Both the position numbers and the translations under genes were made by a program. Under the pieces are notes generated by a model. It was given only the letters and a program-made list of their open reading frames with translations, searched no databases and had not been told where the DNA came from. DNA of 41,148 bases from Alphaproteobacteria bacterium. Its GTDB lineage: Bacteria > Pseudomonadota > Alphaproteobacteria > Micropepsales > Micropepsaceae. This document shows, piece by piece, positions 27,913 through 39,491 of this stretch (within the stretch, counting starts at the first letter, position 1; the number at the start of each line of letters is the position of its first letter). The stretch is from positions 1 to 41,148 of the forward strand of contig SHWE01000016.1 in NCBI GenBank assembly GCA_009693985.1. The letters run 5' to 3'.

Positions 27913-28511
27913 TGAGGCAGTGCTCCCATGTCGCGCAACGCCGTCAGCACCGCAAGCAAGGGCAGCCCGCGGATGCAGAACTGATCGCCCGCGACGTCGC
28001 TGAAAAGCTGCGCGCCGCGTCCTTCGATGCGATAGACTCCGACGGAGCCGAGCGCTTCGGGAAGTTCCACGCCGAGATATTCGTCCAGAAAGCGTTCCGA
28101 GAAATCGCGCATCGTCAGAAACGCATTTTCGCTATGGCGCCAGACCGCTTTACCGTCGCGCGCGATAACCGCCGCGCTGATCAGCTCGTGTTGACGGCCG
28201 CGCAAGGCGCTCAACGTTTCGCGGGCCTCTGTCTCGCTCATGCATTTGCTGAACATGCGGCCGCGGCAGACCAGCACCTGGTCGGCCCCCAGCACCAGGG
28301 CGCCCGGATGCCGCGCGCTGACATCGAGCGCCTTGGCCTCGGCGAGCGCATCGGCGATTTCGCCCGGTGTCATTCCGTCCACCACCATTGCTTCTTTCAG
28401 CGCGTCTTCGTCGATTCCCGACGGCACCGAAGTGAACGCCACGCCGGCGGCTTCCAGCATGAGGCGACGGCTGGACGAGCCCGACGCAAGAATGATCGGA
28501 GCATCCTTCAC
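27909..28511 (-). CDS. maf: Maf-family nucleotide pyrophosphatase
   Basis: 200 aa. N-terminal IILASGSSSRRLMLEAAGV (Maf signature, phosphate-binding Ser/Arg), VLGADQVLVCRGRMFSK with the Asp and Lys that distinguish Maf, and YRIEGRGAQLFSDVAGDQFCIRGLPLLAVL. Maf proteins hydrolyse modified or canonical NTPs, and in several bacteria link to septum formation. It overlaps ppsR upstream by 4 bases and aroE downstream by 4 bases. Confidence 0.95.
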   Translation of the reverse strand: MKDAPIILASGSSSRRLMLEAAGVAFTSVPSGIDEDALKEAMVVDGMTPGEIADALAEAKALDVSARHPGALVLGADQVLVCRGRMFSKCMSETEARETLSALRGRQHELISAAVIARDGKAVWRHSENAFLTMRDFSERFLDEYLGVELPEALGSVGVYRIEGRGAQLFSDVAGDQFCIRGLPLLAVLTALRDMGALPQ

Positions 28512-29326
28512 GACACCGCTCCCCGCTCCGTCAGCAGGTTGAGGATGGCGGCGGCGGTCTCTTCGATGGAGCGGCGCGAGACATCGATCGAAGGCCAGTC
28601 ATGGCGCTCGAACATTTTGCGGGTGGCGGCGATCTCGGCGCGAACTGTTTCCTCGTCCACATAATCGGCGCCCTTGGTCTCGCCCATCGTGGTGAGCCGG
28701 TTGCGCCTTATCTGCAAGAGACGTTCGGGCGACAGATAGAGCCCGACGATCAGCGGCTTCTTGGCGGCGAACAATTGCTCGGGCGGCTCCACGCCCGGCA
28801 CGATCGGAACATTGGCGGCCCGCACGCCGCGGATGGCGAGATAAATACAGGTCGGCGTCTTCGAGCTGCGGCTAACACCGACCAGGATGACGTCCGCCTC
28901 GCCCAGGTTCTGCGTGCTCTGGCCGTCATCGTGCTGGATGGCGAAATTGAGTGCCTCGACGCGTTCGAGATAGCGCGAATCCATGTCGTGCTGCCCGCCC
29001 GGCCGGTGACTTTCCTCCTCACCGAGGAACTTGCCCATCGATTGGACCGCCCGGTCGAGAATCGAGACGCAGGGCACCCCCAGCGTCTTGCACTCGGCCT
29101 CCAGCGCCTTGCGCAGCTCCGGGTTCACCAGCGTGAAGAAGACGATGCCGGGGTCGGCCGCAACATGATCGACGGCACGGCGAAGTTGCCGTTCATTGCG
29201 CACCAGCGAATAGATATGCTCGCGTGCCGAGGCCCCCTCGAACTGCGCGCAAACCGCTTTGGCGACGACATTGAGCGTCTCGCCGGTGGCGTCGGAAATA
29301 AGGTGCAAATGATACTCGCGAGGCAT
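28508..29326 (-). CDS. ppsR: PEP synthase/PPDK regulatory kinase-phosphorylase (DUF299)
   Basis: 272 aa from the ATG at 29326. The open frame runs further up, but that part enters the AT-rich interval and has no family pattern. Core elements are YHLHLISDATGETLNVVAKAV, RPGGQHDMDSRYLERVEALNFAIQHDDG, the P-loop VGVSRSSKTPTCIYLA and the late AANVPIVPGVEPPEQLF. These proteins (PSRP/RP001 class) switch PEP synthase or pyruvate phosphate dikinase on and off by ADP-dependent phosphorylation. It is the first gene of the ppsR-maf-aroE-coaE-dnaQ operon and is divergent from hemE, the arrangement found at the Caulobacter chromosomal origin. Confidence 0.95.
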   Translation of the reverse strand: MPREYHLHLISDATGETLNVVAKAVCAQFEGASAREHIYSLVRNERQLRRAVDHVAADPGIVFFTLVNPELRKALEAECKTLGVPCVSILDRAVQSMGKFLGEEESHRPGGQHDMDSRYLERVEALNFAIQHDDGQSTQNLGEADVILVGVSRSSKTPTCIYLAIRGVRAANVPIVPGVEPPEQLFAAKKPLIVGLYLSPERLLQIRRNRLTTMGETKGADYVDEETVRAEIAATRKMFERHDWPSIDVSRRSIEETAAAILNLLTERGAVS

Positions 29327-29562
29327 GATTCCATCCACCAACCATTCACAGGCTTCAACAAGTTCCCATGGAACCGTGTATTGGGTTGCATAGGTTGAAA
29401 GTTTATCCCCAAGTCCGGTTTGGAAAGGCAACGCTTGCGCAAGCCATACGGCACAGCGTATTACGACCGCAGCTCCGGCAATCATCCACAATATTCGGCC
29501 CCAACACCATCAGCATCAAGAAGACTTAAGAGATTCAGAGAACTGAAGGAACGGCAAAGAAC
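29327..29562. other. Candidate chromosomal replication origin (ppsR-hemE interval)
   Basis: This interval separates a minus-strand operon from a plus-strand operon, so both read away from it. The four lines 29341-29580 have 114 G/C in 240 bases (47.5%), and 29521-29580 only 37%, far below the rest. Near-consensus DnaA boxes are TTATCCCCA at 29403-29411 and TCATCCACA at 29482-29490 (each one mismatch to TTATCCACA), same orientation, 79 bp apart. GANTC methylation sites are at 29327-29331 and 29532-29536. The Caulobacter crescentus origin lies between hemE and a ppsR/RP001 homologue. No TTAA-N7-TTAA CtrA site is visible. Confidence 0.65.
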
Positions 29563-30588
29563 CTGTCTTTATTAGAGAAAGTTCTGCAACGTGATGTGCT
29601 TCGTTCGCCCCCGATCTGGGTGATGCGGCAGGCTGGACGCTACCTGCCAGAATATCTGGCGATGCGGGCGAAGGCCGGTTCGTTCTGGACAATGTGTATG
29701 ACCTCGGAGCTCGCGGTCGAGGTGACGTTGCAGCCTATTCGGCGCTTCGATTTCGATGCGGCGATTTTGTTCTCGGATATTTTGGTTATTCCATTCGCGC
29801 TTGGCCAGAATGTGCGCTTTGAAGAGGGTGAGGGACCGGTCCTCGACAAATTCGCCGGACTGGAAAGTCTGGTTCGCGATGAAACCGTGTGGGCGGAGAA
29901 ACTCGCGCCGGTCTACACAGCGATGCGAGAAACGCGCAAAGGTCTGGCGAGCGAGAAAGCGCTGATCGGATTTGCCGGCGCGCCGTGGACGCTGGCAGCC
30001 TATATGCTGGAAGGGCGTGGCTCCCCCGATCAACGCGCGGCTAAATTGTTCGCCTATCGCGATCCGGATTCGTTCAAACGATTACTGGATGCTCTCTGTG
30101 ATGCGGTCGCCTGGCATCTGCTTCGGCAGATCGATGCCGGCGCCAATGTGGTGCAGATCTTCGATTCCTGGGCCGGCGGTCTGACCGACAAAGCCTTCGC
30201 CGATTGGGTGGTGGCGCCCAACAAGCGGATCGTCGCCGCCATCCGCAAAGTGCGGCCCGATGCGAAAATCATCGGCTTCCCGCGCGCGACCAACCAAGCC
30301 GGTTACGAGCTTTATGCCAAGGAGGTCGGCGTCGATGCCGTCAGCATCGATACGGCGACACCGCTGGGCTGGGCCGCTAAAACGCTTGGGCCGCGCGTCG
30401 CGGTGCAGGGCAATCTCGATCCCATCGCGCTGATCGCGGGCGGACACGCGCTCGATTCCGCCGTCGACCGCATCCTGGAAGCCACAGAAGGCGTGCCGTT
30501 CATTTTCAATCTCGGCCATGGTGTGCTGCCCGAAACGCCGCTCGATCATATGGCGCAGATGATCGAGCGCGTGCGAGGGGTTCAGTGA
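29563..30588 (+). CDS. hemE: Uroporphyrinogen decarboxylase HemE
   Basis: Converts uroporphyrinogen III to coproporphyrinogen III. The start of the fold is [24 protein letters not shown]; then [28 protein letters not shown] (catalytic Asp in FSDIL), [16 protein letters not shown] and [12 protein letters not shown]. The in-frame sequence upstream ([15 protein letters not shown]) fits the usual N-terminal helix. The only standard start codon after the upstream stop (29527-29529) is a GTG at 29596, which would delete that helix. I chose a CTG at 29563, which has GAAGGA about 12 bases upstream; this start is an inference. hemH overlaps the 3' end. Confidence 0.93.
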
Positions 30589-39475: not shown

Positions 39476-39491
39476 TGTTTCACGTGAAACA
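39476..39491. other. parS: parS centromere site for ParB
   Basis: TGTTTCACGTGAAACA is an exact match to the 16-bp bacterial parS palindrome, beginning two bases after the mnmE stop and 39 bases before the mnmG start. ParB-CTP loads here to start the partition complex. In alphaproteobacteria parS lies near mnmG-rsmG-parA-parB, so parAB is expected beyond the right edge. No second copy is visible in the window. Confidence 0.92.

Follow-up and report, generated by a model that had tools for sequence, protein, structure and literature searches.

The window analysed here, 41,148 bp in length, is the whole of contig C52. It comes from a MAG that is 63.6% complete and broken into 68 contigs totalling 2.01 Mb. 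Within the window, ppsR and hemE are separated by a 236-bp gap. The original prediction placed the chromosomal replication origin in this gap and described a flip in gene polarity there, a description borne out by profile matches: ppsR lies on the minus strand and hemE on the plus strand, both reading away. The features to which we refer are as follows.

28508 to 29326, minus strand: ppsR (COG1806/DUF299), left boundary gene; NCBIfam PRK05339, 1.1e-101; its ATG ends at 29326
29327 to 29562, no strand: proposed oriC, the ppsR-hemE intergenic region, 236 bp
29327 to 29331, no strand: GANTC site (GATTC), also beside ppsR in two congeners
29342 to 29350, plus strand: degenerate DnaA-like site CCATTCACA, weak, from the genus alignment; nCCACA at the aligned place in relatives
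29403 to 29411, plus strand: DnaA box TTATCCCCA, one mismatch, containing the W-box core TCCCCA; site shared with 4 of 6 congeners
29434 to 29462, plus strand: promoter-like pair CTTGCG-N17-CGTATT, probably for hemE; same spacing, by reading, in 5 of 7 genus sequences
29482 to 29490, plus strand: DnaA box TCATCCACA, one mismatch, G-box-like
29502 to 29519, plus strand: tract CAACACCATCAGCATCAA, adjoining the second DnaA box and conserved in relatives
29515 to 29574, no strand: candidate unwinding element, 36.7% GC
29532 to 29536, no strand: GANTC site (GATTC) adjoining the unwinding element
29563 to 30588, plus strand: hemE, right boundary gene; TIGR01464, 1.2e-113; CTG the likely start
39476 to 39491, no strand: perfect parS TGTTTCACGTGAAACA, 9.9 kb from the gap

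Boundary genes and base composition

The gap length of 236 bp holds only if hemE starts at the CTG at 29563. A standard start first appears in the ORF listing at GTG 29596, use of which would remove 11 residues, and no ATG, GTG or TTG lies ahead of the conserved N-terminus (window positions 29530-29600). Judged by that N-terminus, CTG 29563 is likely to be the hemE start. A rare start and a sequence error are indistinguishable here; in many relatives TTG is read as the start. Leftward from the gap lie ppsR, maf, aroE, coaE, a dnaQ-like ORF, secB and a Tim44-like gene; rightward lie hemE, hemH, a hemJ-like ORF and rho, with mnmE and an mnmG-like ORF farther out. Of these neighbours, maf, aroE, coaE, secB, Tim44, hemH, rho and mnmE are profile matches, and the others were read from ORF translations.

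In position and in boundary genes, the gap matches the Caulobacter origin, which was mapped by experiment, and the origin predicted in Rickettsia (PMC1914354). In that work, an oriC of this kind adjoins hemE and/or COG1806, carries DnaA boxes in the intergenic region, and exceeds the genome in AT content. Here both genes flank the gap, which does hold DnaA boxes, and the lowest GC among all 236-bp stretches of the window is found at 29354-29589. The GC values originally given were reproduced, with 0.475 over 29341-29580 and 0.367 over 29521-29580; the gap as a whole has a GC content of 0.492, against 0.637 for the window. By nearest-neighbour energy, the least stable 100-mer in the window is 29480-29579.

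There is a second explanation for such a region: that it is merely the AT-rich divergent promoter region of ppsR and hemE, where DnaA acts at most as a transcription factor, and that the true origin lies at another place within some tens of kb, for example nearer parS. The promoter-like pair at 29434-29462, common to congeners, favours this explanation (a scan with the E. coli sigma-70 consensus missed the pair and gave no match), as does the conserved right end of the gap in relatives, part of which consists of the TTG start of hemE and its ribosome-binding site. The match between these boundary genes and those of mapped origins speaks against it, as do the findings on box spacing and on relatives without hemE given below, and we consider it very unlikely.

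DnaA boxes and the adjoining tract in relatives

Both one-mismatch DnaA boxes named in the original prediction are real. The degenerate site at 29342-29350, the promoter-like pair and the perfect parS are additional to that prediction. The exact TTATNCACA is absent from the gap, and the boxes that it does hold are few and weak, which we counted against an origin. The window contains five one-mismatch boxes, against 2.2 expected by shuffling, and two of the five fall inside the gap (P = 3e-4 for this by chance). A 252-kb contig of the relative G005 carries 17 boxes, and the sole pair less than 250 bp apart sits in its ppsR-hemE gap, contrary to what a promoter region alone would lead one to expect.

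The original prediction also proposed comparing this interval among related genomes. Ranked by HemE identity, all of the 30 nearest relatives retain the divergent ppsR-hemE arrangement, and their gaps measure about 215-306 bp. Together with that of the window this makes 31 gaps, which have in common GANTC sites, a CATCATC-type tract and oriented DnaA boxes. When one mismatch is allowed, the 31 gaps contain 22 DnaA boxes, strongly oriented, where dinucleotide shuffles give 1.7 (sd 1.2); core hexamers number 68 against 16 shuffled on the plus strand and 14 against 4 on the minus strand. It is important to note that the shuffles ignore shared ancestry, and that box and motif counts among relatives, these and those below, are non-independent events. 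Within the genus, TTATCCCCA stands at a near-identical distance in five of seven sequences, and the core TCCACA of the second box is invariant and is followed in most sequences by a CAACAnCATCAnCATCA tract.

In an enlarged set of relatives, 42 of 45 gaps contain the CATCATC-type motif, in 66 copies where shuffling gives 7.3. Beyond the second box, the tract in relatives shows a three-base periodicity, with three consecutive TC[A/T] found 31 times against 0.7 by shuffling. This arrangement resembles the basal unwinding system of DnaA box and DnaA-trios in that the co-oriented boxes of several relatives are followed, some 14-16 bp on, by a three-base-periodic tract; it differs in that the tract reads 3'-[T/A]AG-5', unlike the 3'-GAT-5' trio consensus. 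Under the published search rule, a DnaA box must have at least three 3'-NAN-5' trios no more than 16 bp away (PMC8287927); the longest run in the window is two, below that minimum, and over the relatives the pattern is near chance (19 of 45, against 13.7 by shuffling). In B. subtilis a cytosine can stand for the central adenine of the trio (PMC10721633), and for this reason a diverged DnaA-trio is a possible but unproven reading of the conserved tract.

A natural experiment is provided by relatives in which hemE has left this position but the origin module has been kept. In twelve relatives, ppsR has no hemE next to it (G030, G032, G034, G055, G065-G067, G070, G071, G079, G080 and G082). In two of these, both complete genomes, hemE is distant from ppsR by about 1.7 Mb (G066) and 1.4 Mb (G067), while ppsR is still within about 18 kb of parB. 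The regions upstream of the hemE-less ppsR, which precede an apparent hemH, keep a module of the type TCCACA / TCACA / CATCTTCA / GANTC, and in G065 and G067 an apparent old hemE start (TTG AAG TAG) is left as a remnant. Since the module is kept where hemE has departed, it belongs to the locus and not to hemE expression, which is difficult to reconcile with a promoter region alone. The same observation bears on a further idea, in which the conserved tract would serve hemE as a riboswitch or structured leader RNA and would be no origin element. The tract does lie directly upstream of hemE; however, it persists where hemE is absent, and Rfam gave no match up to E = 1, leaving a leader RNA an extremely improbable explanation. 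The relocated hemE copies are about 47-52% identical to the HemE of the window, compared with 54-72% for copies located at the origin. One genome, G037, holds both kinds of hemE, which suggests replacement by another hemE.

Chromosome polarity, dnaA and parS

Polarity was examined in G016, a complete relative of 4,264,312 bp, of which about 37% was sampled. A T-A skew model gives a best origin at 1.72 Mb, and the gap, at 1.64 Mb, is nearly as good. If the gap is taken as the origin, GGGNAGGG occurs 263 times on the leading and 60 times on the lagging strand. The best GGGNAGGG origin is at 1.50-1.56 Mb, about 80-140 kb from the gap, with a terminus near 3.70 Mb; this offset of the best fit was counted against the gap. 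T-A skew and GGGNAGGG polarity flip within about 40-120 kb of the gap, and flip again near the antipode. G011 agrees loosely and with broad limits (66 at the gap, 70 at best), and the short same-genus contigs hold too few GGGNAGGG sites for polarity to be read. No match to the E. coli dif core was found in four relatives. As polarity resolves position only to about 100 kb, placement at the level of bases rests on the conserved footprint, and skew of this resolution is the one further point in favour of a promoter region with an origin elsewhere. GC skew is ambiguous in G005, G006, G011 and G016 and too weak alone to place an origin. GC skew is likewise uninformative in Hyphomonas neptunium, where marker frequency gave a replication peak close to hemE (PMC6650430). 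That origin was mapped experimentally and ours in silico, but both are near hemE; two consensus parS and parAB lie about 7 kb from hemE there (PMC6650430), compared with a parS 9.9 kb away here.

The rival view of an origin beside dnaA has in its favour that this arrangement is common in bacteria generally. The 3.5 kb around the MAG's own dnaA holds no DnaA box, even with one mismatch allowed. In G016 the distance between dnaA (4.12 Mb) and the gap is 1.8 Mb, and as an origin dnaA fits GGGNAGGG polarity poorly, scoring 53 against 203 for the gap and 225 for the best position. This argues strongly that dnaA is not the origin in G016, and for the window we give an origin beside dnaA next to no chance. 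In G016, G066 and G067, some 1.8-2.2 Mb separate dnaA from the ppsR gap; dnaA is nearer the terminus than the origin there, unlike in Caulobacter, where it is near the origin.

The parS at 39476-39491 is the sole one found in the MAG, in a search allowing one mismatch of a genome 63.6% complete. Among 19 relatives with both on one contig, parS and hemE are 9-19 kb apart, and parB lies about 13-21 kb or less from hemE in G005, G006, G009, G011, G016 and G028. In the genus g6 (G084-G094), a parS search allowing one mismatch found nothing in 10 of 11 genomes, whose centromere sequence may have diverged.

Nature and control of the proposed origin

Our conclusion from these results is that the ppsR-hemE gap is very probably the chromosomal oriC, as originally proposed. 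Five lines of in silico evidence, largely independent of one another, support this: the boundary genes, a parS at 9.9 kb, the oriented-box footprint of the 31 gaps, persistence of the module without hemE, and polarity in two complete relatives. The predicted origin is of the Caulobacter-type, hemE-linked alphaproteobacterial kind, with some regulatory divergence. We envisage DnaA bound to two or three weak, co-oriented boxes, of which the one at 29482 would direct a DnaA oligomer rightwards onto the adjoining CATCA-type tract. Melting of AT-rich duplex at about 29502-29580 may follow, allowing a helicase to be loaded and bidirectional replication to begin, with ParB at parS, 9.9 kb off, segregating the new origins. 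Timing would probably be set via DnaA, and possibly via CcrM methylation at GANTC, not via canonical CtrA sites. On this reading, hemE-linked origins reach one more alphaproteobacterial family, an uncultured one, and the footprint would serve as a marker when MAGs are oriented or growth is estimated from coverage.

The closest model, Cori of Caulobacter crescentus, lies between hemE and CC0001/COG1806; the boundary genes are the same and both regions are AT-rich. The weak DnaA sites of the gap resemble the G-box (TGATCCACA) and W-box (TCCCCA) of Cori (PMC1914354, PMC4285127, PMC4468827). Cori differs in exceeding 400 bp, compared with 236 bp here, and in having five CtrA sites, compared with no canonical one here. 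In agreement with the original prediction, no TTAA-N7-TTAA with at most one mismatch occurs anywhere in the window, and hence none overlapping DnaA sites as at Cori. Across 45 related gaps, canonical CtrA sites are at chance (6, against 5.3). The suggestion that control by CtrA is absent or different therefore gains support across the family, as regards canonical sites. CtrA itself is present in congeners, 77-82% identical to a Caulobacter sequence, and was not found in the MAG, which is incomplete (63.6%). The missing sites are not disqualifying, because hemE-linked members with none have been reported: in Wolbachia, Anaplasma and Ehrlichia the origin is predicted beside hemE, as here, and CtrA sites are few or absent in some (PMC1914354). 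Wolbachia has a different boundary gene, COG1253, whereas hemE and COG1806 are intact here and it is hemE that some relatives have lost. The gap also differs from Cori in lacking an IHF consensus; none of the 45 gaps has WATCAANNNNTTR, a pattern stricter than the WATCAN5WTR of PMC1914354, and IHF sites vary among members, N. sennetsu included (PMC1914354). Conserved origin position and canonical CtrA sites, undetectable at this origin, would be separable. A more specific proposal, which we consider rather unlikely, is that the family has a Caulobacter-position origin without CtrA sites though CtrA is retained, controlled perhaps via CcrM methylation and unwound perhaps via the conserved 3'-[T/A]AG-5' three-base tract, unlike the known DnaA-trio.

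The two GANTC sites of the original prediction are indeed present, at 29327 and 29532; such a pair in 236 bp is unremarkable alone. In the 45 gaps, GANTC is 2.6-fold enriched (134, against 51 shuffled). This signal may in part be the hemE promoter and ribosome-binding site, and methylation control is therefore only a suggestion. Over the whole window GANTC is about twofold depleted (101, against 215 in dinucleotide shuffles), which might fit an active CcrM-type methylase. A RAMA-domain protein of CcrM size is encoded in the MAG, and GcrA is present in three of four congeners tested.
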